From a virus: a stretch of DNA of 20,208 bases. Below the pieces are notes generated by a model. It was given only the letters and a program-made list of their open reading frames with translations, searched no databases and was not told the origin of the DNA. Where the stretch lies: the IMG/VR virus record IMGVR_UViG_3300013285_000106, positions 1 to 20,208 of that record; one strand, written 5' to 3'. The position numbers and the translations under genes were made by a program. Shown here in pieces: positions 1 to 20,208 of this stretch (positions are counted from its first letter, which is position 1; every line of letters begins with the position of its first letter).

Positions 1-3000
1 AAAATTCACTAAATTGTCCACTGGATAGTTCACAGGCTGATCCAATTGACCCACACGATGGGTGGCGCGAACAAAACTTGTTTTAAAAATCCAGTCAACA
101 TACAGTTGCTCAGAATGAACAAAATGCACACTGGCTAAAAACAAGTTGAGATATTCCTGCTTCAAATCGCCTATTAAGATATTGTTCTTAATAGTCTTGA
201 GAATTATTCTTAGCTCTGTTACTGCTTGAACGTCAAAATCTCCATTATCAAACACATTGCTATCATAGCCCACATTGGTATTTTGTAGTCGATATAACTT
301 GGATGAAAATTGAATTGTGCCTTGCTGTATACCAACAGTTCTATAGGACTGTGTGTAATCTACTGAACTGGAGTCTGCATACTTTTCCAACAGCAACCAT
401 CCACCCTTATTGGCCATTAGAACTTTCACAAGCTGACCTACCCTTACTTTGGTTTTATATAGATCTGCAAGCGTTGCTACAGCATGGTCAGCCGCACTGT
501 ATTGACTATATCCTGTTTGATACCAATCAACTTTGCTCCAATAATTGTTTACATCATATGACTGTGTTAGAGTCTTGCTATAGGTTTTGTCATCGGGATT
601 GAATCCATAGATACTCCATTGATAATCATTGGTTGCATCACTTCTCACCAGTACTGAAAAGTTTCGCAGTACCAACTTGGTGTTGATGTCATACCCGTAG
701 CCTTCGTTGCTTACGGAAACAGATACGATTTGTCCAGCATTGTTTATGTTGCAAACAACTTTAGCATTTTCTCCTGAACCAGTTACCTCTATGGTTGGAG
801 CAATGATATATCCTTTGCCAGCTGTAGTGATTGACACAGATTTTATTCTGCCATTCACAATTACCGGTTTAAGAACTGGCATTGTGAAAGACACAGCACC
901 TTGATTTGTTGTAAAATCTAGATAGGTGTCATATGTCCTGTCATACAATCCACTGAGAGCAGTTGGCGTTGGGTCTTTTAATTCAAGGTTGTGGATGTTT
1001 CTAGTTTCAACAATTTGTTGTGTGACAAGTACACGATTAACACGTTCTATAAATTCTTTAAGTGCTTCTATCCTATTGATAAACATGCCTTGACGAGGAC
1101 GATTTTCAACTCCATAACGCAGTTTTGTTGGTAAAGTTGGATCTGGCACAGCTCTGCCCTTAGTATCTATGCCACACAAACTGTCAATCCATTTTTCTTC
1201 AATAGCGGTAGGAAGATCAACTATTACATCATTGCTTATCAAACTCCACTGACTGTGCATGGCTTGATCTACTTTGTCCACAGTCCAGTTCTCAATGGCC
1301 AGTACTCTGTCCAAATCTTTGAGATACTTTGCACAATTTATAAGACTGAAAGAATCAACACCTGTAATGGCTAAACATGCATATCCCTGCTCGCGGGGGC
1401 TTGCAATCAGTTTGGCAACATCGTTGGCTGCCATGTAGCGTCCTTGTACATTGGGGATAATTTTTTTGTTCTTGACCCAGAAATAATACAAGTTGTTGAA
1501 CACTTTGCTGGTTGTATCATATGTTTCCAAAGAACTGTAAGCATTGTCTCCGTGCAGACTTTTTCCACTTATTCCCCTAGCTAATCCGTTAGGAGTATCT
1601 GCTATGGCATCCCAACTGCTGGGTTTGAGTGTGCTTTCTACCCATTCATAAATGTCTACAGATGCTCCGGTAGACAATGTGTTCCAAGTGTTATTTCTAT
1701 AATTAAAATCATCAAATCGATTTTCTAAAAACTTGCATGTTCTTAGATCCCACCACAACTTACCCACTTGAGGAGCATCCCAATGACTAATGGAATCACT
1801 TGTGGCATCCATGACATTGCTGTAACTGTATGTGGCCGGATCATAGTATGTTTTGTAAGATAATTCTTCTTCTGCAGGCCCAGCAATTTTTCCCTGTAAA
1901 GGATCTATTACATCAAGATAAGTTGTAAGTGTTTCTAATTTTTTGTCGTAGATAAATGCTTTTCTCACTTTGCCAATGTCTGCAGAAATATTTTGTTTTC
2001 GGAACACGGACCAAGCATAGGCATTTGGTTGTTTGATGTAACTGTACACTTGTCCAGATAACAATTTGCCATCCAAGGCTCCTGGCGCACTAACTACAAC
2101 GCTGTTGGTTCCCACTCCAATACCTGCACCGTACAAGTCTGTAGGCAAATTAGTGGTAGGGAGAGATTCACTGTAAACCCACACATTGTTATAGATATCA
2201 TAGATATCCACTCTACCCGCATGTGATTCTGTTTCCGTGAAATTAGTGGACCCTTTGTCAAAGGTAGTTGTACCATTGTCAAAATTTCTTAATGTCGATG
2301 TGTCTCCATTCTTGCTGTAAACAACAATTGTTTTATAGTCATTCATGAAAGACACAGTGCTTCCAAACTGCCCGTTTTGTTGTGGACTGTGGTTATTTAG
2401 AGTTGATACATAAGAGTAATTTGATCCCTTATTGTTGGTATAAACTTTTACAATACCTTCGTACATAATTCCTACAGGAGCAGTTGGATCTGATACCGCA
2501 AGATATGTTCCGTCATTGCTGAAAGACACTGATTGCCCCCATGCAGTTGCAGAATTTTGTGTCGGCAATCTAGTAGGAGCAGGCAATGTTTGTGTCAACA
2601 AATTATTTTTATAAACTTGGACAGACTTACCCACACTGCTCACAGCCAGCCATGATCCGTCAGCACTCGTTGACACTGTGTAACCAATAGCATTGTTGCT
2701 TGTTCCTATGAAATTATAAGAAAAATCATAAGCCCACGTTGTTGCTGTGAATGTTAAAATTCCACTTGGAGTCTTGTCAGGCAGTTGATCCAATAATATT
2801 GTATTGAGATCGACCACAGACGGAGTAAAATTTAGCTGTAATACTGAGAATGTCAATGTGTTGTCGCCATTCAATGTGATTTGCGTGAGTAATGAAGAGT
2901 CCACACCTTGCAAACTAGAAATTATTATATAATTGTAGGATTTGTAAATGCCATTAACTAATACTTGTTCAGCACCAAGAGAATAAATGTTGGCGGCTGA

Positions 3001-6000
3001 CAAGATTCCTGGCCCAGTCACTGCCATGCCAACTGTCAAATTTGCAGTGTTTTTATTTGGATCATTGATGCTTACTGTGTTTCCAGCAATGTTCACAGCT
3101 AATCTAATTTTGATTAACAAGGCGTCTACAATTTGTCCTTTATTAAAGCCAGTCCCGGTAATATTCATGCCGGCTCTAACTCCTGCGGTTGATGCTACTG
3201 CCACAATGTTTTTTGAACTGCCATTAGGATTGTAAACTGTACTGGCGTAAGATATAGTTTTATAACTGAATTTATAAACTCTACCAACACCGTTTCCATA
3301 GCCTGGCGCACCCACATACATAGAATTGGTGCCGAATGCCACGCTGTTGCCAAAGTTTTCGTTTGGAGATGGAATAGGACTTATAATAGAATCTATAAAA
3401 GTATAATCATTGTTGGATGACTTCTTGTACAAACTTATTACACCTTGCGATGCTAAACTGCTGTTGACTCCTGTTGCCTGACTTACTGGAATGTAAGGCA
3501 CGGACTCCCAATAGATTGAACTTGTATTTGGAATATTGTTTGCTGGCACTGCTGACACTGCTTGCCAATATGTTATATTGTTTGCAAAAGACACTGACAC
3601 TATGGAATTTATCACATAGGCTGAAGCTGAAACATAGGCTCCTCGATAACCGGTGGCAACATATCCAACCCCAGGACTGCCTATCACCAACCATGTGGCA
3701 TCCGTACTGAGAGACAACACAGTGCCAACTTGATTTAGCTTGACATTTCTGCCAGGATTTACTGGGTCGTTGAATGCTAAGAACGGCGTTGTCAATGTGG
3801 CTCGCTGAGTAAATGCCACTGACGATCCTACCTTATCGTATATGGTTACATAACCTTTGCTGTTTCCTACTGCAAGTATAGAGCCCTGTTTGTTAACGGT
3901 CAAGGAGAATCCATTGGCCAATCCGCTTTCAGCATTTATGTTGGTCAATATTTTTTGTTTGTATACAGGGGCAAATTTCCATACTGCCCACGAATCTGAA
4001 CCGTCATTGTCGGTCCATACCAGATCTCCAGTCAAAGAGTGTGCCAGTGGCAGTGCATCTATAGCATCTATGTTGGATATTTTCCTAGACACCAATGAAA
4101 ATATTACAAGTTGTTTGGTTTTAATAAAAGGTGATGCAATAGACTTGTCGGTGAGTATAGTAAATGAATTTAAAGTAACAGAAGCCACTTGATAAAATCC
4201 ATTTATAACATCAACAGGAGCTGACCCTACACTGGCAACACTCAGGCCCACATATGATCCCACAGTCAACGGAACAATGCTCTGAGTGGTTATGGAAAGC
4301 ACTCCGTTGGCATAGACAACTCCGCTTGCTCTTATTAAGAGATCCGTAAATCTATAAATGTTCCAACTGGCTCCTTCAAAAGAACACCACACATATTGCC
4401 CTTCCGACAGTTGTTTTATATCAACATTCACAATGTCTGCTATGGATCTCAGTTTAAATTTGACGTCGGCAGGATTTACATATCCAGCATTTCTCAACAA
4501 CGGAGTTGGGTTTGATAAAGTAGGAAATGGCTTTGATTGGTAGCCCAGCGGCTTTACAAATATGTCATTTGGAGTTTGCTGTATAATAAAACTGCTGATG
4601 TTGTTGTTCTTTTTTTCTACCAAGGCATAACCTTGCGGATTATTTTTAAACAGTGTTTCATCGAGTACTATTTCTATGTCTTCAAAAGCATCAGTGGCAC
4701 CGTATCTTCCAACACGCAGTGCCCATTCCTCGTAGAACTCTAAACTTTCTACTTTGTCAGTGTTTAACACGCCAAACAAATGATTCAACACATTCTGTGT
4801 GCCTTTTTCACGAATCATGCCTTGGTAAAATTTAAATTCACTTACGGGATCTTGAATTATGTTGTGCAAGTATTGTCTTGATTGATATCCAATCAAGTGT
4901 TGTGCAAACTGCTGATGCTGTGGATTGAAATTGTCCACATTGAGACTGTAAAAATCCACAAACTGTGTGGCGCTGTTGTTCCAATTAGGCAGTAACTTTG
5001 AGGTTGGTGCTTTACTCAACTTGTTCCAATATGCTGCCACAAAAGAACTAGATCCTGCAACAGCCTTGCTAGCACTGTAATAGTTGCCTTGATTGTACAC
5101 AATGTCGCCAAGATTGTAATCAGTGTATGGCTGCCAATTGGATATTTTTGCAGAATCAAATATAAATCCTGGAATGTCAAGACCGCCGTACCAGTCATTT
5201 GTAACATAACCCGAAACTTTAATACGATCCCTACGATAGCCGCTGGTAGGACTGTAAATTACATCATTGAATATGTCTGTGTTGTCAATGATAATCACAT
5301 GCTCATTCTGTATGAGATAAAAAGTAGCACCATAAATGCCGTCAGTACCCCGAGGACTATATGTAACGACATTTCCACTTCGATATGAATCCAGTTGCGT
5401 GGATTTTATAGTAGCCCCATCAACTTTGAAAAACTCATAACTGTTGAAAATATTGTTGATATTGTCTACCACTGTGAGGTTAGTATTAAAGGACACACCA
5501 TTTGCGGCAGGACTTAGACTGATAACACTGCCTCCAACATTGGTCAAGCCTGCAAGCAGTGTCCATTGCATGGCATCAAATATCGGATTTACTGGTAAGT
5601 TGTATGCCGCGCTGTAATAGGAACCATTGTAACGCACAATGGTGCCGTAGGTATAGGGCTGACTTGGCAGCCAGTCACTCCAATATTGTTGTCCCGTGGA
5701 CCAATTTTGGGTAGTCCAGAACATGAACTCCTTGGCGCTGGTTTGCCAGTTGGCCACTACACTAATGTTGGAGTTGAATTCTTCAAATACAAATCCTTGA
5801 TCCATTAACCACTGTTCATATCCTAACAAAAAGTCCACTACTTCTTGAATAGTGGCGAAAACTGTACCATAAGGAGCAGTAAGAAGTGTGGCTTTGTCCC
5901 ATCGATTTCTAAAGTACGCATTGGCACCGCCAACTATGGGCAAGTTTGGAATTTTTGTGAAATTAGTTGGTTGAAATGCAGGACCCGCAGTGATGTTGGT

Positions 6001-9000
6001 TTTGGCTGTGTAAAAATTATTGGCGTATTTTACAATTTGTCCAGATACATACTGCTGATTGGCTGACCAGTCAACAAAGCTGTCGCTGATGCCGCCCACA
6101 TTTGTGGCAGTACCTGTTCCAAAATAACTGTAGTATTTGAAGTATGGCTGTGAATTGCTGTAGCCTTTTATTTCAAACCCTGTTGATAATTTGGTCAATA
6201 TCACACCGCTGTAAGTGAGTTTTGTTACAGGGCTTGAACTGTTTAAAAAAACATTATAGCTTTCTGCTGGCACAAATACATTACCCGTTGCCAACGGTGT
6301 TTTAGATTCCAACAACAGATTGAACTGGCTCTTGTTTGTAAAAGCTCCGAGTCGATAACTTAATCTTGGCGTTAAATTTTGCAAGTCAGTTTTGTAAGCA
6401 GTAAAGCTGTCTAAATTGTTGCTGAAAATTATATTGGTAATAAAATTCACAACATAGTTTATGATGCCTGCTGTCTGAACGCGAGGAGTAGTTGTATAGA
6501 TATTAGGCACAGCTATGTCTGCTGGTTTAATCCTGAGATTGGTATCCTTGTATACAAGTTGCCCTGCTTTGTTGCGTACAATTCGTGACTTATCCAACAA
6601 CACACCAAATGTTTTGGCAGGTGTAAGCAACATACTGGCCAATATAACACTGAACGGATAGTAACTGCTTCTGCGCCATGCGGCTTCTACTGGACCAACA
6701 TCTCCAAATACAAAATTGTTATCAATATTTTGTGTTATTGTTCCTTGTGCTAGACCAGAAACAAGCGGGCTTACTAACTTGCCAGCATGGTCAACTGGAA
6801 TATGCTTTAGCAAAAATGGTCGTTTGTATTTTGCCAATACATATGCAGGCATGCCAGGTTGTCTCACCGTACCTGCTGCCAAATCAGTCCATAGAATCAA
6901 ATTGTCGCTGGTGTAAGGAGCAGGGCCGTATACCTGCTGCCACCAACTGGGTTCTACATTGAATCCCAACATCTCCCATGGACAAACATTAGGACGATCA
7001 GTATCCAGCATGTATCTATAGATGCCTCTCCAGTAGGCGGGAATTGCTGTTTGACTTATAGATTTGTTGCTTGAATAGTTAAAGGTAAAACTATTGGTTC
7101 TATCAAAAGTTAAATGTTGTGCAAAGTCAACTCCAACTAGCCCAGCCCATTGATAAAAATATGGCGCAAGCACTTGGTTGAATTCCTCGACAGTGTAATC
7201 TTGATCTCGAACATAGGAAGGCACAATATCGTGGATGTCAAATACATCCGTATCATAGTCCACTTTTATATTGTTGTAGATTCGAGTTTCTAACTCCAGT
7301 AACAAATCGTCTCTGTAATCTCCATAGGCCAGTATTACGCTGCCGTCATGTCCTTGTATCATGTTTCTAGGAGTTACCAATGTGGTATCTGTATAAATTT
7401 GAGGAACAAATTTTGGATACAAACCCAGTTTGCTTGGTGTTTCAGGCACAAAACAACCATCCGTATTGTCATACTCCACTGTGGTTATGATATCTCCAGT
7501 TGATAATGGCACTGAAGATTGTATCGTGATGTAGCCTTGATCATTAAAGATGTAGTCTCTTTCATACACCAACTGCTGTTTTGTTCCTGTAAAGGTCACG
7601 GTGTGATATATACACACTGCTTTGTTAGACAAACTGTCTACATTAAACACACTTGACAGCGGGTAATTTTTTATTCTATAATCAACCACATTCAATGCAG
7701 TAACAACACTGGCTCCGTAGGGAACCATATCGCTGAAATAATAAGGAGCTGTTTTGGGCTTGTTGGCATTTAGTTTTTGCAACACAAGGTCCACATGAGT
7801 TACTGTGTCAGAATTAAGACCTAGCGACCCAGCTACTTCTATAAAACTTCGCTTGAAAGCTCCGTAATCATTTCTACTTTGCTCTATGGCTTTGATTATG
7901 TTATGAGATTCCGAGGTTATATGGTATTGACTTAGGCTGGCTGGCCCGCTATGCTGAACAAATTTTGTTCCATACTGTGTGACATTGCCCAAGTCTCTCA
8001 AATTACTAGTGCCAGGAAATACCCCTTGAAATGTTGTGATGTTTTCAATAATAGATTCCACGTGGTCGCTTACTTCACCCAACGTGAAATCCGTCATGGC
8101 ATCATTGAGAGGATTGTTTTGCAAATTCAGTGGTAACTCATAATAACCATTTGCATTGATTGCTTGTGATGCATAGGCCTTGATGGTCAATATGTCTATG
8201 GATGATATGTCTGTGGTCAATTGTACTAGTTTATAAACAGGACTGTTTATAATTTTGTAGTTGCTAGGCTGTAAATACACTCCGTTAACATAAATTTTAA
8301 CTACTAGATCTTGCAAATTGCTAATGTTGTCAAAAATATCTATAGGAAAACTATTAGTTTGATTGGCATCTTTGTAGATCCTTACACCTGCTTGCACGGA
8401 TGTGGCTTTTGACACTTGCCAGCCATTCAAATACTGATTAATTCCAGCATAATCTCTTCCCAGCAAATAGCCCGATGACACAGATTTTGTAACTACGTTG
8501 CTGTTTAATTTGTATTGAAATATATCTGATGCCAGCGAGAAACTAAAAACTATGTCACCTATGTTGTTGACATTTTGATAGCTTAATGGAAACCCTAAAA
8601 CCACATCCTTGGTTCCTGTCGTGGCAGTTTTGTATGCAAACAAGGTAGTGCCAACAAACGTGGATCCACTGTAAACTGTTGTGTCAGAATAGCTCACTCC
8701 GTTTGCGTCTACTATATCAAATAGCGGTGACTGATTTACAGTTGTTTTTTGTTGGCCTTTTAACCAGGCAGAGCCGTTGTACCAATACATGGCACTTTGA
8801 TTATTGACACCTTTCAAGATGATAGTGTTCTGATTCAATTTAGGACTTGATATCTCAGTGAGATGTATTTGTTTGTAGCCGCTTATATTGATAAAACTCA
8901 CTTGAAATATTTTGCCATTTACAAGAGGATCTGTATCAGCTGTAAACAACACCCTATAGCCCGGGGCCAAATCAACTCCATCTATGTTGTAACCTCGAGA

Positions 9001-10359
9001 ACCTTCAATCAAAGAAAATACATCAGTAGTAAAGGTGTCTATGAGATCAACATCTGCAATGGCATCGGTTCCCAAATTATACAGTTTGATATCGGCTTCA
9101 AATTCTATAATGGGTCTGTTAGCCCGTGCTGTTTGATCAAGACTGGCAGTTGCACCGTTGTACACAGCACTGCCTGTAATAACATCTTTGTGAAACCAAC
9201 GATTGTATCTGCTCCATGGATTGTGATCACGACTGGCACGATTTACAACCACATAGTCCTTGAGAGTACTAAATCCAACCGCATCATCGAACGGGTATTG
9301 GTCAAAGGGCGTGTCATCAAATAATATATTTTGATTTTTAGTATAAGGTGTTACTATTTCCAATGTTTTTTCTGCAACTAAACGTATGGCAATGCCAACA
9401 CCTTCAACATAGTATGCACCTGTGGCATAACTGGCGGGAGCAACATTACCGTTGAATTTCAACTTCATACCATTGCTCAGTGTTGTACCATTGGACAATG
9501 TGTAATTTTTTTTGCCCAGCAAGTCTTTTTCTATATCCAAAACACTTGCATCCGAGATGTCATGAATCTCAATGGCGCCGCCTAGATTGATATCAGTTTC
9601 ACTTTGATAAAACAAAATAGATGGAGCATCATTTGGCACGGTGAACACCAACACACCAGTTTCAATACCATATTGATTTATTTGAGCTGTAATGTACCTG
9701 TTAATAGTACCTGGGGATCTAGATGTTTTAATACTGAATGGATTACCTTCGCTTGAAATTTCAAAAATATATGTTTGCCCCCTATACAGTTTTAATATAG
9801 GGTTAGGAGCTAAACCATCAGGAGTAAACACATACTGATTGGCATTGCCTACTGATTCTATCTTGAGTGCATATGTGCTCTTGATGTTGACGGGCTGGCC
9901 ATATACATTTATCGGGTCCGGACCGTATGGCAACCAATAATAATTTTGAAAATTAACAAACTTGTCCCAGTCAATGTGCGGATCCCAAGAATAAAATTCT
10001 TGTTTGTTGAGTCTGTCATGTTTGATTACATTTGCACCAAACACACTCAACTGATTAATATAATCTTGATAATCTTTAAAAAACGTTATATTGCCCAGCG
10101 AATCTTTGACAGTTAGAGCTGGCTCCAATTGATAATTCTGTCTCAGTGCATTGGCAGATTTCACATACACATCTGTGCCTTTTGCTGCCTTGGCATTTTT
10201 CCTTCCTATAAATCCAGTAGTCTTGGTCAAAGTACCAGGTTGATACAATTGATCTATAGTGGATTGTAAAAACTTTTTGTTAGCTGTGGTTTGATAAAAA
10301 TCTGGTAGGAAATTTATACCAAGACTGGCTTTACCAGTTGGATTATTTTCGTTAGCCAT
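1..10359 (-). CDS. Giant baseplate-associated virion protein (C-terminal part outside window)
   Basis: The frame starts with ATG at 10359 and has no stop for 3,453 codons down to base 1, so the protein is incomplete at its C terminus. Its start overlaps the gp6 stop (TAATG), with GGAG at 10370-10373 as ribosome binding site. Seen in order: an N-terminal block (about 1-170, with WDPHIDWDKF and YYWLPYGP), a cupredoxin-like segment (183-270), a block with NPWSRYNRWFH near 381, three CBM5/12-like modules (1430-1471, 1562-1602, 1741-1782), a pair of GxxVWxxxxGxxxW motifs (1987 and 2111), about seven FG-GAP-like repeats (2149-2786) holding a fourth CBM-like module (2238-2288), a Trp-rich block (VGKLWWDLR, about 2863), a block with YGVENRPRQGMF (about 3087), and a GxGY beta repeat (3172-3236). 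By position after gp6 it may occupy the place of T4 gp7/gp8/gp10 or act as a fibre, but I see no similarity to those. No signal peptide or membrane segment was noticed. That it is a virion protein is inferred from the operon. Confidence 0.93.
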   Translation of the reverse strand, partial: MANENNPTGKASLGINFLPDFYQTTANKKFLQSTIDQLYQPGTLTKTTGFIGRKNAKAAKGTDVYVKSANALRQNYQLEPALTVKDSLGNITFFKDYQDYINQLSVFGANVIKHDRLNKQEFYSWDPHIDWDKFVNFQNYYWLPYGPDPINVYGQPVNIKSTYALKIESVGNANQYVFTPDGLAPNPILKLYRGQTYIFEISSEGNPFSIKTSRSPGTINRYITAQINQYGIETGVLVFTVPNDAPSILFYQSETDINLGGAIEIHDISDASVLDIEKDLLGKKNYTLSNGTTLSNGMKLKFNGNVAPASYATGAYYVEGVGIAIRLVAEKTLEIVTPYTKNQNILFDDTPFDQYPFDDAVGFSTLKDYVVVNRASRDHNPWSRYNRWFHKDVITGSAVYNGATASLDQTARANRPIIEFEADIKLYNLGTDAIADVDLIDTFTTDVFSLIEGSRGYNIDGVDLAPGYRVLFTADTDPLVNGKIFQVSFINISGYKQIHLTEISSPKLNQNTIILKGVNNQSAMYWYNGSAWLKGQQKTTVNQSPLFDIVDANGVSYSDTTVYSGSTFVGTTLFAYKTATTGTKDVVLGFPLSYQNVNNIGDIVFSFSLASDIFQYKLNSNVVTKSVSSGYLLGRDYAGINQYLNGWQVSKATSVQAGVRIYKDANQTNSFPIDIFDNISNLQDLVVKIYVNGVYLQPSNYKIINSPVYKLVQLTTDISSIDILTIKAYASQAINANGYYELPLNLQNNPLNDAMTDFTLGEVSDHVESIIENITTFQGVFPGTSNLRDLGNVTQYGTKFVQHSGPASLSQYHITSESHNIIKAIEQSRNDYGAFKRSFIEVAGSLGLNSDTVTHVDLVLQKLNANKPKTAPYYFSDMVPYGASVVTALNVVDYRIKNYPLSSVFNVDSLSNKAVCIYHTVTFTGTKQQLVYERDYIFNDQGYITIQSSVPLSTGDIITTVEYDNTDGCFVPETPSKLGLYPKFVPQIYTDTTLVTPRNMIQGHDGSVILAYGDYRDDLLLELETRIYNNIKVDYDTDVFDIHDIVPSYVRDQDYTVEEFNQVLAPYFYQWAGLVGVDFAQHLTFDRTNSFTFNYSSNKSISQTAIPAYWRGIYRYMLDTDRPNVCPWEMLGFNVEPSWWQQVYGPAPYTSDNLILWTDLAAGTVRQPGMPAYVLAKYKRPFLLKHIPVDHAGKLVSPLVSGLAQGTITQNIDNNFVFGDVGPVEAAWRRSSYYPFSVILASMLLTPAKTFGVLLDKSRIVRNKAGQLVYKDTNLRIKPADIAVPNIYTTTPRVQTAGIINYVVNFITNIIFSNNLDSFTAYKTDLQNLTPRLSYRLGAFTNKSQFNLLLESKTPLATGNVFVPAESYNVFLNSSSPVTKLTYSGVILTKLSTGFEIKGYSNSQPYFKYYSYFGTGTATNVGGISDSFVDWSANQQYVSGQIVKYANNFYTAKTNITAGPAFQPTNFTKIPNLPIVGGANAYFRNRWDKATLLTAPYGTVFATIQEVVDFLLGYEQWLMDQGFVFEEFNSNISVVANWQTSAKEFMFWTTQNWSTGQQYWSDWLPSQPYTYGTIVRYNGSYYSAAYNLPVNPIFDAMQWTLLAGLTNVGGSVISLSPAANGVSFNTNLTVVDNINNIFNSYEFFKVDGATIKSTQLDSYRSGNVVTYSPRGTDGIYGATFYLIQNEHVIIIDNTDIFNDVIYSPTSGYRRDRIKVSGYVTNDWYGGLDIPGFIFDSAKISNWQPYTDYNLGDIVYNQGNYYSASKAVAGSSSFVAAYWNKLSKAPTSKLLPNWNNSATQFVDFYSLNVDNFNPQHQQFAQHLIGYQSRQYLHNIIQDPVSEFKFYQGMIREKGTQNVLNHLFGVLNTDKVESLEFYEEWALRVGRYGATDAFEDIEIVLDETLFKNNPQGYALVEKKNNNISSFIIQQTPNDIFVKPLGYQSKPFPTLSNPTPLLRNAGYVNPADVKFKLRSIADIVNVDIKQLSEGQYVWCSFEGASWNIYRFTDLLIRASGVVYANGVLSITTQSIVPLTVGSYVGLSVASVGSAPVDVINGFYQVASVTLNSFTILTDKSIASPFIKTKQLVIFSLVSRKISNIDAIDALPLAHSLTGDLVWTDNDGSDSWAVWKFAPVYKQKILTNINAESGLANGFSLTVNKQGSILAVGNSKGYVTIYDKVGSSVAFTQRATLTTPFLAFNDPVNPGRNVKLNQVGTVLSLSTDATWLVIGSPGVGYVATGYRGAYVSASAYVINSIVSVSFANNITYWQAVSAVPANNIPNTSSIYWESVPYIPVSQATGVNSSLASQGVISLYKKSSNNDYTFIDSIISPIPSPNENFGNSVAFGTNSMYVGAPGYGNGVGRVYKFSYKTISYASTVYNPNGSSKNIVAVASTAGVRAGMNITGTGFNKGQIVDALLIKIRLAVNIAGNTVSINDPNKNTANLTVGMAVTGPGILSAANIYSLGAEQVLVNGIYKSYNYIIISSLQGVDSSLLTQITLNGDNTLTFSVLQLNFTPSVVDLNTILLDQLPDKTPSGILTFTATTWAYDFSYNFIGTSNNAIGYTVSTSADGSWLAVSSVGKSVQVYKNNLLTQTLPAPTRLPTQNSATAWGQSVSFSNDGTYLAVSDPTAPVGIMYEGIVKVYTNNKGSNYSYVSTLNNHSPQQNGQFGSTVSFMNDYKTIVVYSKNGDTSTLRNFDNGTTTFDKGSTNFTETESHAGRVDIYDIYNNVWVYSESLPTTNLPTDLYGAGIGVGTNSVVVSAPGALDGKLLSGQVYSYIKQPNAYAWSVFRKQNISADIGKVRKAFIYDKKLETLTTYLDVIDPLQGKIAGPAEEELSYKTYYDPATYSYSNVMDATSDSISHWDAPQVGKLWWDLRTCKFLENRFDDFNYRNNTWNTLSTGASVDIYEWVESTLKPSSWDAIADTPNGLARGISGKSLHGDNAYSSLETYDTTSKVFNNLYYFWVKNKKIIPNVQGRYMAANDVAKLIASPREQGYACLAITGVDSFSLINCAKYLKDLDRVLAIENWTVDKVDQAMHSQWSLISNDVIVDLPTAIEEKWIDSLCGIDTKGRAVPDPTLPTKLRYGVENRPRQGMFINRIEALKEFIERVNRVLVTQQIVETRNIHNLELKDPTPTALSGLYDRTYDTYLDFTTNQGAVSFTMPVLKPVIVNGRIKSVSITTAGKGYIIAPTIEVTGSGENAKVVCNINNAGQIVSVSVSNEGYGYDINTKLVLRNFSVLVRSDATNDYQWSIYGFNPDDKTYSKTLTQSYDVNNYWSKVDWYQTGYSQYSAADHAVATLADLYKTKVRVGQLVKVLMANKGGWLLLEKYADSSSVDYTQSYRTVGIQQGTIQFSSKLYRLQNTNVGYDSNVFDNGDFDVQAVTELRIILKTIKNNILIGDLKQEYLNLFLASVHFVHSEQLYVDWIFKTSFVRATHRVGQLDQPVNYPVDNLVNF
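652..846 (-). repeat. GxGY beta repeat near the visible C-terminal end of the giant protein
   Basis: Residues about 3172-3236 contain SVSITTAGKGYIIAPTIEVT, then GSGENAKVVCNINNAGQIVS and VSVSNEGYGYDINTKLVL. The pattern xVxxxGxGYxxxPxVxxxGxGxxA...GxVxxVxVxxxGxGY resembles beta repeats that I recall from other marine myovirus structural proteins. A structural role is inferred. Confidence 0.5.
2950..3204 (-). repeat. Paired GMxxTGxG beta repeats in an insert between blades 3 and 4
   Basis: Within the insert (about 2370-2550) two units are recognisable: VRAGMNITGTGFNKGQIVDA at 2394 and LTVGMAVTGPGILSAANIYS at 2441. The xVGMxVxGxGIxxGxxV pattern is common in phage tail and fibre proteins and looks like a small beta domain. 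Their function is unknown to me. Confidence 0.5.
3496..3648 (-). other. CBM5/12-like module D inserted within propeller blade 2
   Basis: Residues about 2238-2288 read YRGAYVSASAYVINSIVSVS, then FANNITYWQAVSAVPANNIP and a closing IYWESVP. This keeps the Y..xxIVSVxxxxYWxAxxxxPxxxxxxYW form of the CBM5/12 pattern, although the usual Gly before the core strand is Asn. It sits between the VIGSPG strand end and the QGVISLYKK strand that together would form one FG-GAP blade. Confidence 0.5.
5014..5139 (-). other. CBM5/12-like module C (in giant protein)
   Basis: Residues about 1741-1782 contain NWQPYTDYNLGDIVYNQGNY, then YSASKAVAGSSSFVAAYWNKL. The Y.xGDIVYxxGxYYSA core is nearly canonical for CBM5/12 and the closing YW is present. 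It lies about 180 residues after module B, which makes a series of three related modules with different spacers. Confidence 0.65.
5554..5676 (-). other. CBM5/12-like module B (in giant protein)
   Basis: Residues about 1562-1602 contain DWLPSQPYTYGTIVRYNGSY, then YSAAYNLPVNPIFDAMQWTLL. All landmarks of the CBM5/12 pattern are present: the leading Trp, Y.xGxxVxYxGxYYSA, the Pro-containing loop and the closing Trp. It lies about 130 residues after module A and is the clearest copy of the four. Confidence 0.65.
5947..6072 (-). other. CBM5/12-like module A (in giant protein)
   Basis: Residues about 1430-1471 read DWSANQQYVSGQIVKYANNF followed by YTAKTNITAGPAF and a closing TNFTKI. This follows the CBM5/12 (ChiC/BD-type chitin-binding) pattern W..xxxYxxGxxVxYxxxxYxA...P...xxW, with the final Trp replaced by Phe. 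The small domain presents aromatic residues and in characterised enzymes binds chitin or other glycans; in phages similar modules occur in tail proteins. Binding here is inferred. Confidence 0.6.
9550..9813 (-). other. Cupredoxin-like domain lacking metal ligands (in giant protein)
   Basis: Residues about 183-270 of the giant protein follow the pattern of cupredoxin-like domains I recall from marine phage structural proteins: GQTYIFEISSEGNPFSIKTS, then VLVFTVPNDAPSILFYQS, then GGAIEIHD. In the metal-binding form the places of GNPF and FYQSETDINLGG are usually held by a GHP-type His and by a YYxCxxHxxMGG-type motif. Here the Cys, His and Met ligands are all absent, so the fold may be kept without metal. 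The assignment is from pattern memory only. Confidence 0.45.
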
Positions 10360-10361
10360 TA
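10357..10361 (-). promoter_or_regulatory. TAATG stop-start overlap between gp6 and the giant gene
   Basis: The gp6 stop TAA (10361-10359) shares its last base with the ATG (10359-10357) of the giant gene. A GGAG lies ten bases upstream inside gp6. Translation of the two is likely coupled, which would link the amounts made. Confidence 0.75.
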
Positions 10362-13300
10362 GCTATTTGCTCCGTAATTTGCACTGGTTATTTGTTGATT
10401 AGTAACTAGAGATGCCAGTCCAGTGCCTGTTACTGTCTTCAAATTGGTATTTGTCAAACCTGCCACAATAACAATATCAGTTGTTGATGCACAACTTAGA
10501 AATATTCCATTACTTGGGCACTTGATTTCAAACAAACTGCCAAAATATTGACCAGTTTGATTGGGCACAATAACAAAACTTATGATGTCCGGTGAAAGCT
10601 GTTTCATAACATATGTAGACAGCTCAGTGAAATAAAAGGTATCTCCAAAATTCCAATTTTCTAAGGCAAAGAATTTATTAATTGCTGTGAGTATTCTTGC
10701 TTGCACATTGGCATTAGACACCGTGGAGTTGGGATTTTTAATGACCTCAAATGTTGCCCTTAAACTAGGGTCAGCCTGTTTACCAAATAACAACACGTAG
10801 TTCACAGGGTGATATATCACTTCGTCGCTGATAGATTTTATCAAGTCTAACTTGCCTGATAGTAGATTGTTGAGTTCATCTGAACTAGGTGGCAACGGCT
10901 CGGTAGTTTTTCCGCCTGCTGATATCCATTGACGATACGCAGTGTCATAGTTATTGGTTAAAATGTAAACATCTATAATATTACTGGCGCCAGGATCAAT
11001 TCTAGAATTGTAATCCGCACTATGAGTGTATTGGAATCTTATTTTGTCTCTGCCCAGGTATACCCTATAGTCCAATGTAGGACTATAGGATCCAGTTGAT
11101 GCAAAGTATTGCACAACTGTTTGAGTATCAATAAAATAAAAATATTGACCATCTTGCCATTGTGTCAACGGGTATAACAATCCTTCAGTGGCTAAAATAA
11201 TAACCGGACCAGCTGTGGCACTGTTGTATACATACCTATAGTCCTCTTGACCTACACTTATGATGTACTTTTTCTGCACAATGAATTTGTTTTGTAATGG
11301 GGCTGTATAAGGAGCCACAAAGTCCAAAAACAATTGAGGATTATCTACCACCCCTGTGTTCTTTGGGTCGGCAAATGTGATTACAATTTTCTTAGGGTCA
11401 ATATATCCATCATTACCAATGTATTCCGATACAATCTCCCACTGCAAGTCAGTTGTAAAATTGCTAGTTAGTCCTGGTTTTGTGTTTACATTCAAGATCT
11501 TTATGTAATCCACAATGGTTTTGCTTGAAACCTTGTCATATATTCTATTTGTAGTGTCAAAGTAGAATATAACTTCTTTATCACTTTCAAAAATGTATCG
11601 TGTGGAACGCTGAGTAATCGTGTAGTTTTGTGTGTTAGTGGTAAACAAAAGGAACCAGCTGGCATCCAATTGGGTGTTAGATGAATTGCCTTGGTAGTTG
11701 AGATTGAAAGTGCTGGCAGTGTTAATATTGCTTGAGTAAATTATTTGCCAGCTTTGAGTAGGCGCATCATATCGCAAACCAAATGCACTGTTAGCAGATA
11801 TCAAATCTATCATTTGTGCTTTTATGCTGGTAGTCAGCGTGGTTGCAAACTGCGGTATAATTTGTGTTACGATAGGAGCAACTATGCCAGCTTTGACCAC
11901 AAGATTTGGAATAGACTTGCTCAAGACAATTGGTCCAAATCCGGTTGCCAGTTTGCCTGTACCTGAAGCTGTGCCGTCACCTGCCACTGATACCACACTG
12001 GCCCATAGATACAAGGCGCCATTTACTGGTAGTGCATCTGTATAGGCAAAAAGTGCATTGTTTTTTGTGGTGTCAAAATAGAAACCAGTTGGAGCCACAA
12101 ATTTGACTAAGGATCCCACTGTTACATACAACAAATCAGTCAACGTGTATGTGCCCACAGGATATGGCGTTGCTCCTATTGTGCCGCCTATATATCCTGT
12201 ACTGCTGTTGCTGTCGGCGGTTGTACTGTACCAAGCCACATTCAAGCTGGTTGTGATATAGTTGATAAAGTTCTTGTAGAAAAAGTTTCTAAGATTAGGG
12301 TCTTCTAAAATAGGAGTAACCACATTATCCAGCACTCCTTGGATATCAGTAGTAGTTAAATAGGTAAATGTAGTACCAGACGTATAGTCCTGTTGATATA
12401 TTACACCATCGTCTGCAAACAGATTAGTGCTTGAATATTTTCCTGTGGGATCAGTTAGATCAAAATACCTGCTGATACCACTGGATGTTCTGTTGATTGC
12501 CTTGACCTTTGCCACTTGCAAACTGGCGCTTAATGGACTGATGTTGTAGTCCTCACCTGTGATCATGCGATTCTGTGTGTAGTATGTTTGCGGAGCATTT
12601 TGTTTTATACTAGCATTAGTTTCTGAAGACGTGGCATTCACAGCGGATGTTGCCAATGACAAAGTCACAACCAATGTTTCGTTGCCTCCCGTGGCGCTGA
12701 GATAAGGAATTGTAATTGAAATATTGTTGATGTCTGTGGTGTTCACTGTGTAAGTGAGATTGTTGGATACTCTGTACAGTGCCTTGAAACTTCCTAATGG
12801 TATTTTTCCAAATATGCCGTCTGCAAAATTCAGTGCGATAGCATCATTCACTCGAGTGCCTACACTGTACACTGTGCTGATGTTTTGATTTAAATTGTTG
12901 TAAATGATGTTGTTGCCTGTCAATGCAGGTATCTTGCTCCACAATACGTCTTCAAGACCCTTTTGATTCAGTTGCCACAACCATACATCAGCATCGTTGA
13001 TGTTTTGTGTATCAATATTCACAACTTCGTTGGTTGTGGGATTACTTATTGTGAATGTACCTTGGTTGAGAGTGCCCTGAACAAATCTAAAGAAAAAACC
13101 AGTGGTAGGACTGCCTGCACCGTAACCGTCGTCTTGGTAAACACAGGCAATACTGTTGCCCGCCTTAGGTGTTTCCTCGTAGATATAGTCTTCGCCTTTG
13201 AATGTCGTGCTTACAATTTCGAATGGCATGCCTCGACCAGCAACATTGGCCGTGAAGCTGTACACAGGTATGTTGGTGTTGGTTGCATTGAATCTGTATT

Positions 13301-13856
13301 GTGCTGTGGGAATATTGTAAATTGTAGCTGAATCGCTGGGATTGCCAAACTGCTGTGTTTGAGGCAATGCGGCATTCAGTACTTTGATAAACTGGTCATA
13401 CCAATTGCTATTGCTGGCATCATTCCAAGCAATGGTTTGACCCGACAAATTCCTACCGTTGCTGTCTGTAACATTTTCTGTTGTGGTCACCGTGCCAAAT
13501 TTGAGCAGTCCGCTGGCACTGGTGCTCCTGTGAGGCACGTAGCTTACCAACTGTGACAGATTCAGCAAACTGCTACGACGTTCGGCTGTTTCAATAAAAT
13601 TTTCTCTAGCGTTTAGATCCACTCGAAAAGCAATACTTTGTCCAACAAATGCAATAAGATCAATAAGAGCCAGATATTCACTTGACTCAACATAATCATT
13701 GAAATCTTCTGGAAAATTGGTACGAATGTAATCTATCATGGTTCGACGCAAATTTTCAAAATCATAACTGGTGAAATCAGCATTGGCAAATGTTTGATAG
13801 ATTTTTTTCCAGTCTTCTGACAACAAAAGATTGTTTTGTCTTATGGTTGAACTCAT
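10359..13856 (-). CDS. 6: Baseplate wedge subunit gp6 (enlarged)
   Basis: This protein belongs to the gp6/gpJ-type baseplate wedge family, which forms the inner ring of wedges around the hub in T4-like phages. The N terminus (about 1-110) carries the conserved stretch with DYVESSEYLALIDLIAFVGQ and the RENFIETAERRSS region. FADGIFGKIP lies near 345 and the hallmark QNAPQTYYTQNRMITGEDYN near 417-436. The C terminus (about 1015-1098) has YHPVNYVLLFGK and the GDTFYFTELSTYVMKQL stretch, matching the gp6 C-terminal region. At 1,165 residues it is much longer than T4 gp6 (about 660); the extra length is mainly beta-type sequence between about 500 and 1000. ATG at 13856 is preceded by AGGA (13863-13866) six bases upstream. 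It follows gp25 after the only sizeable gap in the operon, and its stop overlaps the next start. Confidence 0.92.
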   Translation of the reverse strand: MSSTIRQNNLLLSEDWKKIYQTFANADFTSYDFENLRRTMIDYIRTNFPEDFNDYVESSEYLALIDLIAFVGQSIAFRVDLNARENFIETAERRSSLLNLSQLVSYVPHRSTSASGLLKFGTVTTTENVTDSNGRNLSGQTIAWNDASNSNWYDQFIKVLNAALPQTQQFGNPSDSATIYNIPTAQYRFNATNTNIPVYSFTANVAGRGMPFEIVSTTFKGEDYIYEETPKAGNSIACVYQDDGYGAGSPTTGFFFRFVQGTLNQGTFTISNPTTNEVVNIDTQNINDADVWLWQLNQKGLEDVLWSKIPALTGNNIIYNNLNQNISTVYSVGTRVNDAIALNFADGIFGKIPLGSFKALYRVSNNLTYTVNTTDINNISITIPYLSATGGNETLVVTLSLATSAVNATSSETNASIKQNAPQTYYTQNRMITGEDYNISPLSASLQVAKVKAINRTSSGISRYFDLTDPTGKYSSTNLFADDGVIYQQDYTSGTTFTYLTTTDIQGVLDNVVTPILEDPNLRNFFYKNFINYITTSLNVAWYSTTADSNSSTGYIGGTIGATPYPVGTYTLTDLLYVTVGSLVKFVAPTGFYFDTTKNNALFAYTDALPVNGALYLWASVVSVAGDGTASGTGKLATGFGPIVLSKSIPNLVVKAGIVAPIVTQIIPQFATTLTTSIKAQMIDLISANSAFGLRYDAPTQSWQIIYSSNINTASTFNLNYQGNSSNTQLDASWFLLFTTNTQNYTITQRSTRYIFESDKEVIFYFDTTNRIYDKVSSKTIVDYIKILNVNTKPGLTSNFTTDLQWEIVSEYIGNDGYIDPKKIVITFADPKNTGVVDNPQLFLDFVAPYTAPLQNKFIVQKKYIISVGQEDYRYVYNSATAGPVIILATEGLLYPLTQWQDGQYFYFIDTQTVVQYFASTGSYSPTLDYRVYLGRDKIRFQYTHSADYNSRIDPGASNIIDVYILTNNYDTAYRQWISAGGKTTEPLPPSSDELNNLLSGKLDLIKSISDEVIYHPVNYVLLFGKQADPSLRATFEVIKNPNSTVSNANVQARILTAINKFFALENWNFGDTFYFTELSTYVMKQLSPDIISFVIVPNQTGQYFGSLFEIKCPSNGIFLSCASTTDIVIVAGLTNTNLKTVTGTGLASLVTNQQITSANYGANS

Positions 13857-13906: not shown

Positions 13907-14353
13907 TTACTGCTTGAGTGATGTGGCCAGTAGTCCTACTTTTTGATCAAAATGTATCCTGAGATTTTCGCTTAGATTATAAGTTACATAAGTCAAAGTC
14001 ATTTCCAATTGTAGTCCAGTTTCGTACTGATTAATTACCACATTGCTGGCTTGCACTCTAGGGTCAGCATTTACTATAGCATTGATGTTCTGCAACAATA
14101 AATCTTTCACTTGCGGCGTTAAGGGCTCAAACAATAGGTCCCATATTACACATCCATATTCTGGGTCCATGAGTTTCTCGCCTTGTCGCACATAAAAACT
14201 GTTAATCAAATCCTGCTTGATCAACTCAAAATCATACAGTGCAAAATTCTTGCTGTGCTTGTTTACAGTGCTAAATCCTCTGTATTTGCGTGTGACCGGA
14301 GAAGATGGATTTCCTAGGCCATTTATAGTTGTTCTGTTGTATAACGATGACAT
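13907..14353 (-). CDS. 25: Baseplate wedge subunit gp25
   Basis: At 148 residues this matches the gp25-like family, the small wedge protein shared by contractile tails and type VI secretion (TssE). It helps hold gp6 dimers and starts the sheath. Visible family features are the KNFALYDFELIKQDLINSF helix start (about 36-53), the RQGEKLMDPEYGCVIWDLLF block (about 56-75) and the core loop NADPRV near 95-100, where the usual EPR motif reads DPR. Start ATG at 14353 is preceded by AAGGA, which overlaps the stop of the spike gene nine bases upstream. The order spike, gp25, gp6 is as expected for a T4-like baseplate module. Confidence 0.93.
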   Translation of the reverse strand: MSSLYNRTTINGLGNPSSPVTRKYRGFSTVNKHSKNFALYDFELIKQDLINSFYVRQGEKLMDPEYGCVIWDLLFEPLTPQVKDLLLQNINAIVNADPRVQASNVVINQYETGLQLEMTLTYVTYNLSENLRIHFDQKVGLLATSLKQ

Positions 14354-14362
14354 GATTATTCC

Positions 14363-15955
14363 TTAAGCATTTTCTTTTTTAGGCTTGGCTTTACCTTCGA
14401 TAAAAGCAAATGTATCAGTTGCAGTGGTATATTGCAGATAAAAATCTGGGTAGGTAATGTTGCCGTTGCTGAATGTTATTGCCTTTGACACTTCTCTGTC
14501 TGTTTTTGCCGCAGTCATGGCCAAAGGATCCAAGTTTTCATGCTGTGGCCAAGGTTCTTGGTTTGGTACCCTCTTCATGATACTGGTTATTTTGTCTGCT
14601 TGAGTGCTGTAGATGTTGCCAAAAGTTGACAACGCAGTAGGCGCTGTTGCCAGCGCAGTGGCTGCCACTGGCCCGTTTTCTCCGATGAGGTTAGCAGTAA
14701 GCAAAATGTTGTTGGTAGTTTTTAGATTTGTGTTCTGACTGGTTAAATTTATGGCTGCTGATGTGGTTACATTGAAGTCTTTCAGCACATTGATATAATC
14801 GCCCACAACCTTGACTTTATAATTGCCATTGACCATCACATTAAGATCACCTGCCGTTTCCAATTGAGTTCGTGTTTCGGATTTTAAATTAATGTTCCTG
14901 CCTGCTTCCATATTGATGTCCCTGTCGGCATAAAAATTCATGTCAGTCTTGGTATGCACACTAACACTGTCTGCGGCAAAAATATCAATTTTTCCATTGC
15001 TTGTTAATTCGATCCAAGTTGTGCCCTTGGCATTTCCAATGTAGATCAAATCCTCACTGTTGTGTAACAGTATCTGATGTCCAGTTCGTGTTCTAATACG
15101 AAATAGTTCGTTATGAGGTATCGTAGGATCACCATCTGTTTCATTGCCTTCCACACTGGCATAGTTGGGTGGACCTTTGTCAGCAGGTACTTTTCTTCTA
15201 AAATTGTCATCACCGTCGTCCATGACAAAGGTTGTGCCTCCCAGTCTGCTTACATTAATCAACTGCTGTGGTTCAGATCCAGCTTTGCCTGTGGGTGCAC
15301 CATTGCGCCTGTCAACTGGTCCAGGAGTGCTGATTCCAAACACTGTGCTGGGAGTTTCCCTTCTTGCACTGCTGGTAGTAATACCTCTTACGTCATCAGT
15401 AAAAAGTCCCTGCAATTTTAACACGTCAGCAAATAGACTGGTGGGTTTGGCCAGTTTAGTAAAATCTTTTGGTGCATCTGAACTGGATGCTTGCACCACT
15501 TTGTTCACCTCGGCTACTGGCGCCCTAAGTGGCTGTCCAAATTTTGTAGTTCCGCCTTCCACTGTGAATTGAGTGGATGCTAATCCCGGAGTCATAAAAT
15601 TGGCGCCTGTATCTGGAACACATCCTATCCAATAGCCTCTGGCAGCATCTCCGTTTATAAAAATTACAATTACCAAGGTGCCTGGATCAGGGGGAATAAA
15701 CCACATGCCATAACTTTTTTGTGTGTCATCATACTTGTTGTTTTTGTTCACATAGTTAGAGCTGGTTTGACCTGCAAATGGCATCATGGCTTTGACTTGA
15801 AATTCTTCGCCTGAGAAATTGCTGTTGCCTATTTCTCTCAATATGCGCACCTTGAGACCGCCGCCGTAGTCTGGATCGGTATGACCAATAACTTCCGCAA
15901 GTCGCGGAGTTTCAGGAGCGGGTTGTCTTGGTTTGGTTGCTGAATCTATTGCCAT
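14363..15955 (-). CDS. 5: Baseplate central spike gp5-type, no lysozyme domain
   Basis: This is a spike protein of the gp5/VgrG class that caps the tail tube and pierces the cell envelope. Residues about 18-130 form the OB-fold type domain (DPDYGGGLKVRIL, GMWFIPPDPGTLVIVIFING, RGYWIGCVPD). A linker follows (about 135-280) with SARRETPSTVFGISTPGP at 196-213. From about 284 to 425 the sequence turns into short beta-helix repeats, from IRTRTGHQILLHNSEDLIYI through DINMEAGRNINLKSETRTQL to VNGNYKVKVVGDYINV, which is the trimeric needle. The T4 lysozyme domain between these parts is missing, so no peptidoglycan cleavage is predicted. The C-terminal tail has RVPNQEPWPQHEN at 462-474. Its ATG overlaps the stop of the hub-like gene by one base (TAATG). 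Confidence 0.85.
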   Translation of the reverse strand: MAIDSATKPRQPAPETPRLAEVIGHTDPDYGGGLKVRILREIGNSNFSGEEFQVKAMMPFAGQTSSNYVNKNNKYDDTQKSYGMWFIPPDPGTLVIVIFINGDAARGYWIGCVPDTGANFMTPGLASTQFTVEGGTTKFGQPLRAPVAEVNKVVQASSSDAPKDFTKLAKPTSLFADVLKLQGLFTDDVRGITTSSARRETPSTVFGISTPGPVDRRNGAPTGKAGSEPQQLINVSRLGGTTFVMDDGDDNFRRKVPADKGPPNYASVEGNETDGDPTIPHNELFRIRTRTGHQILLHNSEDLIYIGNAKGTTWIELTSNGKIDIFAADSVSVHTKTDMNFYADRDINMEAGRNINLKSETRTQLETAGDLNVMVNGNYKVKVVGDYINVLKDFNVTTSAAINLTSQNTNLKTTNNILLTANLIGENGPVAATALATAPTALSTFGNIYSTQADKITSIMKRVPNQEPWPQHENLDPLAMTAAKTDREVSKAITFSNGNITYPDFYLQYTTATDTFAFIEGKAKPKKENA

Positions 15956-18080: not shown

Positions 18081-18380
18081 TTAGATACCCAAGGCTGGAT
18101 TAAGTTCACTCAGTTTGCAAATATAGATTTGAGTTCCTGGCACAAAGTCCAAGATAGGATCTTGTAATACATCTAGATTGCGTTGTATAAACACCCACCA
18201 AAGACTAGAATCTCCGTAGAGATCATGTGCCAATAAATCTGGTCTATAAGTGTACTGAGGCTGTATGGTGTACAAGAAATCGTCAGGATTTGCACTGACT
18301 GATCGTATGTTAAAGATGTCAAGGTACGTGTTGACTATGGGTGTTTTGTAATAGGGGCTGGTTTTGCTATAAGTTGCCAT
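18081..18380 (-). CDS. 53: Baseplate wedge protein gp53-type (short)
   Basis: At 99 residues this corresponds to the N-terminal part of the gp53 baseplate wedge family. The diagnostic stretch is RPDLLAHDLYGDSSLWWVFI (about 47-66), which aligns with RPEELANAIYGNPQLYWVLL that I recall from T4 gp53. The protein then ends with a GTQIYICKLSEL stretch that recalls the last part of a LysM-like unit. T4 gp53 is about 196 residues, so the C-terminal half is absent; the short form appears to be a normal variant rather than a broken gene, because the frame starts and stops cleanly. ATG at 18380 is preceded by AGGA about 11 bases upstream and the previous stop by one base. Confidence 0.85.
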   Translation of the reverse strand: MATYSKTSPYYKTPIVNTYLDIFNIRSVSANPDDFLYTIQPQYTYRPDLLAHDLYGDSSLWWVFIQRNLDVLQDPILDFVPGTQIYICKLSELNPALGI

Positions 18381-19441: not shown

Positions 19442-20208
19442 ATGATACCCACAACCCCAGTAAAAGTAAATTATCTCAACAACAAAGACATGCTGTTGGA
19501 AATTCACAAAAGCAAATCCAGTTATTGCAGTTTTACCAAACCACAATATCACCAATACGATATAATATTACCCAGTCTAGATAAGATTAACATAAGAACC
19601 ATAGCCGAAGCCAAGCGCAATCAAGCCAAACGAGTAGGAGATCTAGCCTACGCCACTCGCAAAAAAGCCGGCGAAAAAGTCAAACAAGCAGACTGCGAAG
19701 TTGATTATAAAAAAATAACCAAAACAGATTTGGTTTTCAGGATCATGACATTTGATCATATTCCCCTCAACAATGTGCGCAAAAAAAATCCCAAAAGTCT
19801 TGCTGATCATCGAGACAAGGTCAACTTCCCTCCATTCCAACATTGGAAGTTTGATGACACTGATCCTGAAAAATTGATCTGTGTTGGAAAAAGTCACTGG
19901 AAAGGTGACTTACAAAAGGGCAAGTTTGACAAGGATGCTGGCCAAATAACTAACACTCTAGCTCGCATGATGTTAAAATTGTGTGAGAGATATGCCACTC
20001 GCGGCAATGTTCGTGGCTACACATACAACGACGAGATGAAAGGACAGGCTATTTTGCAACTAACACAGATAGGACTTCAATTTGATGAATCAAAATCAGA
20101 CAACCCGTTTGCCTATTTCACTGCCGCAGTTACAAACAGTTTTGTTCGTGTGATCAATATTGAAAAACGCAATCAGAATATTAGAGATGACATATTGGAA
20201 ATGAATGG
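19442..20208 (+). CDS. 55: Late transcription sigma factor gp55-type, with large insertion (C-terminus outside window)
   Basis: The 255 residues visible match the T4 gp55 late sigma family, which replaces the host sigma on core polymerase and recognises late promoters. VNYLNNKDMLLEIHKSK at the N terminus (9-25) parallels NYVNNKELLQAI of T4. From 169 to the edge, ITNTLARMMLKLCERYATRG, GYTYNDEMKGQAILQLTQIG and LQFDESKSDNPFAYFTAAVT parallel the sigma-region-2-like part (SGYTQSWKQEMIADGI, NFDETKYKNPHAYITQA). About 135 residues (31-167) lie between these blocks, where T4 has only about 20; this insert is rich in Lys and Arg and contains TDLVFRIMTFDHIPL near 95-109. The ATG is preceded by AGAGGA at 19428-19433. 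The frame is still open at the window end. It is divergent from the tail operon it probably controls. Confidence 0.88.
   Translation, partial: MIPTTPVKVNYLNNKDMLLEIHKSKSSYCSFTKPQYHQYDIILPSLDKINIRTIAEAKRNQAKRVGDLAYATRKKAGEKVKQADCEVDYKKITKTDLVFRIMTFDHIPLNNVRKKNPKSLADHRDKVNFPPFQHWKFDDTDPEKLICVGKSHWKGDLQKGKFDKDAGQITNTLARMMLKLCERYATRGNVRGYTYNDEMKGQAILQLTQIGLQFDESKSDNPFAYFTAAVTNSFVRVINIEKRNQNIRDDILEMN

Follow-up and report, generated by a model that had tools for sequence, protein, structure and literature searches.

The minus strand of a viral DNA window (the whole stretch analysed, positions 1 to 20,208 of IMG/VR record IMGVR_UViG_3300013285_000106) carries a giant reading frame directly after a gene for the baseplate wedge protein gp6, raising the question of whether this frame encodes one protein and which T4 wedge protein or proteins it corresponds to. 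In the ORF listing, the frame (1..10359, minus strand) starts with an ATG at 10359, comprises 3,453 codons and is open through base 1. The 3,453-residue translation contained no stop within the window, in agreement with the stop-free frame from 10359 to 1 described in an earlier note on this DNA. With a random-frame stop probability of 0.0595 per codon at the base composition of the window, the probability of 3,453 open codons arising by chance was ~1e-92. Among the matches listed, the nearest relative holding the remainder of the gene was IMGVR_UViG_3300032265_000225 (G001), in which the giant is a single ORF of 5,076 aa. The two sequences aligned codon for codon across all 3,453 codons, with 84% amino-acid identity and a pN/pS of 0.13, indicating that the giant frame is coding.

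The stop of the frame lies outside the window, because the window is a 20,208-base IMG/VR fragment and the gene is cut at the contig end. Complete relatives measured 4,252–5,461 aa from stop to stop (among the matches listed), and extension past base 1, which the earlier note had proposed, was approached through G001, where the frame continues as one ORF. Comparison with the relatives suggests that the window probably carries the first two thirds of a ~5,000-residue protein, with ~1,600 residues missing from a full length of ~5,070; the earlier estimate of at least 3,453 codons was therefore correct as a minimum but too small. As the window is a metagenome fragment whose end falls inside the giant frame, an assembly artefact fusing separate genes was considered. 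However, a single open frame was kept in 84 of 86 distinct relative spans (~residue 100 to 3,450; among the matches listed), with one break each in the remaining two, and in complete isolate genomes, and the identity to G001 was even (75–90%) across the whole giant. An artefact is thus extremely improbable, and assembly error as the source of the frame was excluded by the intact single frames of the relatives. The single breaks, in L119 and L052, fall near residues 2,700–3,000 (indices 2596 and 2889 within the span that was compared). The IMG/VR scans each returned at least 600 matching stretches, almost all from relatives, and a search of GTDB genomes found no relatives.

The neighbouring genes place the giant in a T4-type baseplate cluster. 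The gene upstream (10359..13856, minus strand) encodes a 1,165-aa homologue of the wedge protein gp6, matching phrog_10646 (E 1.7e-294) and phrog_219 (E 1.3e-20), with an hhalign match to T4 gp6 at E 3.4e-5; the profile matches make this assignment solid. Its stop overlaps the ATG of the giant in the sequence TAATG. Further back on the minus strand lie a gp25 homologue (baseplate wedge; 13907..14353; PHROGs match and Pfam PF04965), a gp5-like hub/spike protein (14363..15955; phrog_13211, E 6.4e-49), a 707-residue virion protein, a gp53 homologue (baseplate wedge; 18081..18380; phrog_7145 and Pfam PF11246) and a 325-residue virion protein. The gp5-like protein gave OB-fold and spike matches, and no lysozyme domain was found in it in the Pfam search. 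On the plus strand, a divergent gp55-like late sigma factor is encoded at 19442-20206 (phrog_12791, E 1.4e-67); despite this gene, the T4 late promoter TATAAATA was sought in the window and was absent. The same order, namely sigma factor, two virion proteins flanking gp53, gp5-like protein, gp25, gp6 and giant, was also found in 121Q and PA5oct. In the Salicola phage SCTP-2, the protein directly upstream of the giant (gp141; L003 8609-17899) has 3,096 residues and is far longer than gp6 elsewhere. Downstream of the giant, the next gene of the relatives begins with a gp9/gp10-type anchor (phrog_958 positions 2-36). The gene that follows it in G001 (L175 4787-6358) lies among tail-fibre genes and encodes a protein of 524 residues that has both a pro-kumamolisin activation domain and a subtilase domain, and P-SSM2 likewise has a PF00082 protein adjoining its tail spike gene.

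The giant belongs to phrog_10938, annotated as 'virion structural protein'. It matched this family over five stretches (E 0, 1035 bits in the profile search) and is, as the earlier note had recognised, a single chain directly downstream of gp6, a position confirmed by the gp6 matches and the gene order. PHROGs places phrog_10938 under 'head and packaging', which is contradicted by the gene position and neighbours. Isolate homologues, each one chain after gp6, are 121Q gp582 (3,323 aa), CBB_236 (3,340 aa), PA5oct gp355 (3,857 aa), SCTP-2 gp140 (3,807 aa) and the proteins of Atu_ph07 (4,449 aa) and Phosso (4,555 aa); RsoM2USA has a shorter homologue, ORF361, of 2,541 aa (PMC8504454). PA5oct gp355 was found by mass spectrometry according to a note in the PA5oct record, and CBB_236 was identified in virions with 21 unique peptides (PMC5259590). 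In phAPEC6, gp245 (381.88 kDa) was detected in virions with 17 peptides and is listed beside baseplate wedge gp244 (PMC7247149); from its size and this listing, we infer that it is a homologue of the giant. The look at virion proteomics of related isolates that the earlier note had advised thus placed homologues in purified virions and, together with the annotation of phrog_10938, bore out a structural protein family, and the window giant is most likely a virion protein as well.

The closeness of these homologues to the giant varies. The proteins of the RaK2-like jumbo phages (121Q gp582, CBB_236, phAPEC6 gp245) are homologous over most of their length and share the single chain, the position directly after gp6 and the presence in virions, but RaK2-like members of 3,323–3,340 aa are shorter than the full-length relatives of the window giant (4,252–5,461 aa), which have extra and longer modules. 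PA5oct gp355 and the proteins of Atu_ph07 and Phosso occupy the same slot and belong to the same family, but show just ~26–35% identity in the best-matching N-terminal stretch. In the fold search, A0A6J5L0K2, a YHYH domain-containing protein of an uncultured Caudovirales phage, had 52% identity over 662 columns to residues 2790–3453, but is an uncharacterised metagenome entry. The literature searches made found nothing on the giant protein itself.

The window encodes residues 1–3453 of this protein, and all features given below lie on the minus strand. Regions common to the isolates are mostly residues 1–2000, 2800–3100 and 3300–3500, and residues 2000–2800 and 3800–4200 are variable. Near the N-terminus, residues ~162–267 (9559..9876) form a domain that cyanophage gp9 also has at its C-terminus (phrog_677 positions 305-410, E 1.6e-18) and that T4 gp9 lacks. 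A CBM5/12-like carbohydrate-binding module is located at residues 1431–1466 (5962..6069; Pfam PF02839, 34.5 bits vs. a cut-off of 26.2). Two further CBM5/12-like stretches, at residues ~1560–1590 (5590..5682) and ~1742–1790 (4990..5136), were assigned by motif resemblance and are not separately significant; another lies near the C-terminus of G001. Residues ~2118–2790 (1990..4008) form a probable beta-propeller (WD40/FG-GAP-like) that varies between relatives, and a conserved domain follows at residues ~2790–3150 (910..1992). AlphaFold2 modelled residues 2790–3453 with a pLDDT of 84; the fold matches were viral relatives, e.g. Atu_ph07, and no PDB entry matched at E below 0.001. The confident model of residues ~2790–3150 has no PDB counterpart, so this domain may represent an undescribed fold. 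A GxGY repeat module (685..873) is also found in a cyanophage gp8 insert and in tailspikes. Searching the PDB with the whole giant sequence gave nothing; with segment profiles, the GxGY repeat matched a tailspike and all other matches were weak. Matches to phrog_460 'head closure' and phrog_438 'gp8' were rejected as repeat-module matches.

The gene following gp6 is gp7 in T4 and in cyanophages, and the giant fills the same position directly after gp6. Sequence comparison with T4 gp7 (1,032 aa) gave no significant match to the giant. The gp7 profiles phrog_964 and phrog_17744 did not match it significantly, and a search of six complete jumbo phage genomes with the T4 gp7 profile, phrog_964, revealed no further gp7. 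The segment searches against T4 gp7, gp8 and gp10 suggested in the earlier note likewise returned nothing significant, with hhalign probabilities all below 4% for 500-residue segments of the giant against T4 gp5, gp6, gp7, gp8, gp9, gp10, gp11 and gp53. The same profile approach recovered gp6 and linked T4 gp7 to cyanophage gp7 (95%).

The gp7 core was also searched in two halves, and the HMMs of both were not significant against the giant. For the first half, the best window within the family was a weak match at residues 80–103 (10051..10122), and this match was not reproduced in the isolate homologues. The candidate second half, residues 1841–1888 (4696..4839), carries an FYxGxIxxKGT motif kept family-wide. 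An unbiased scan of the whole protein placed the best match to the gp7 KGT core at residues ~1848–1871, and the 121Q, PA5oct and Phosso proteins matched in an identical register, although weakly (hhalign probability 4–22%); these matches are not independent, because the proteins are mutually homologous. All KGT segments of 79 members matched phrog_10938, and the gp7 family was absent among the 25 families listed for them. AlphaFold2 modelled the KGT segment (residues 1795–2040) poorly, with a pLDDT of 61 and below 50 in the KGT part, and the Foldseek null result for this segment is therefore uninformative. Homology to T4 gp7 is thus not significant and not proven by sequence, with one short core motif that aligns weakly but reproducibly.

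Marine cyanophages offer a second comparison. In P-SSM2, gp7 has 5,195 aa and lies directly after gp6 and before gp8; P-SSM7 carries a 7,124-aa giant after gp6, followed by gp9. S-SM2 gp7 has 4,156 aa, the giants after gp6 in S-CAM7, ACG-2014f, Bellamy and ACG-2014b all exceed 4,000 aa, and that of S-PM2 has 3,048 aa (lengths of the Synechococcus phage giants were computed from annotated coordinates). In S-CREM2, a 1,937-aa protein after gp6 (length from coordinates) was detected in the virion with 91 peptides (PMC10665884). The cyanophage giant gp7 (P-SSM2, S-SM2; phrog_2885) resembles the window giant in being a giant single chain right after gp6, with common modules and a similar KGT motif. 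Moreover, a domain beyond the window, near the C-terminus of the full-length relatives, matched a cyanophage gp7 domain (hhalign 94%, E 1.5e-7). However, no full-length homology was detected, and the core halves lie inside the first 230 residues of cyanophage gp7 but ~1,750 residues apart, as candidates, in the giant. The modules common to the giant and the cyanophage proteins are mobile and do not prove orthology. The novelty of architecture proposed in the earlier note did not hold, as P-SSM2, P-SSM7, many Synechococcus phages and the RaK2-like phages carry giants after gp6; jumbo phages and marine cyanophages were already known to encode such giants, and the window adds another, incomplete one.

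Taken together, the giant is quite probably a gp7-type T4 wedge protein to which many domains have been added, among them carbohydrate-binding modules and what is probably a beta-propeller. The earlier note had named gp7 among the possible counterparts, and by position gp7 is the most likely one, although sequence significance is lacking. The carbohydrate-binding modules, the fibre- and tailspike-type repeats and the lack of significant gp7 homology would also suit a peripheral protein of the adhesion or fibre type whose place after gp6 is fortuitous, gp7 itself being encoded at another locus in an unrecognised form. This reading appears unlikely, since the position directly after gp6 is conserved across distant phage groups, the gene overlaps gp6 at TAATG, the RaK2-like phages share a core that covers the greater part of residues 1–2,000 together with residues 2,800–3,100, and the KGT match is reproducible.

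It was also considered whether a single chain might perform the functions of both gp7 and gp8, and possibly others, which would make the wedge periphery one polypeptide. A T4-type gp8 was detected by profile search neither in six jumbo isolates (121Q, PA5oct, CBB, Atu_ph07, Phosso and SCTP-2) nor in five relatives, and the giant carries modules found in cyanophage gp8 and gp9. However, these common modules are exactly the parts without a counterpart in T4 gp8 and gp9: the parts of phrog_438 matched by T4 gp8 gave no match to the giant, which matched positions 182-301 alone, an insert absent from T4 gp8. The absence of gp8 depends on profile sensitivity alone, and the contigs of the relatives are fragments; P-SSM2 has a giant gp7 yet a separate gp8. 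The replacement of gp9 and gp10 that the earlier note had envisaged was not supported, because the next gene of the relatives carries the gp9/gp10-type anchor and PA5oct retains a T4 gp10-like protein downstream of its giant; gp10 is thus not replaced by the giant. A composite wedge protein is accordingly doubtful, though conceivable. The specific version in which a ~1,750-residue insertion split the gp7 core and the chain took over the role of gp8, making the wedge periphery from gp6 to the fibre anchor one ~0.5 MDa glycan-binding polypeptide, we hold to be improbable.

For the gp7-type reading, we propose a working model of a wedge platform with built-in glycan-binding modules. The giant would stand in for gp7 in a baseplate wedge of the T4 type, presumably with one copy per wedge, and a short helical core that includes the KGT motif would dock on the gp6 dimer, as T4 gp7 does. 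The long insertions and the C-terminal part, with the carbohydrate-binding modules, the beta-propeller and the fibre-type repeats, would extend outward and form a large platform at the periphery. This platform would carry the fibre-anchoring protein from the adjoining gene and touch host-surface glycans, and receptor binding would lead to wedge rearrangement and then sheath release, as in T4.

These findings broaden the evidence that large phages construct their T4-type baseplates on enormous chains in the gp7 position, with hundreds of metagenomic relatives. In addition, they provide a testable link between two annotations that had been unlinked, the jumbo-phage 'virion structural protein' and the cyanophage giant gp7. 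The architecture of the giant suggests that host-glycan binding may be part of the baseplate wedge, beyond the fibres.
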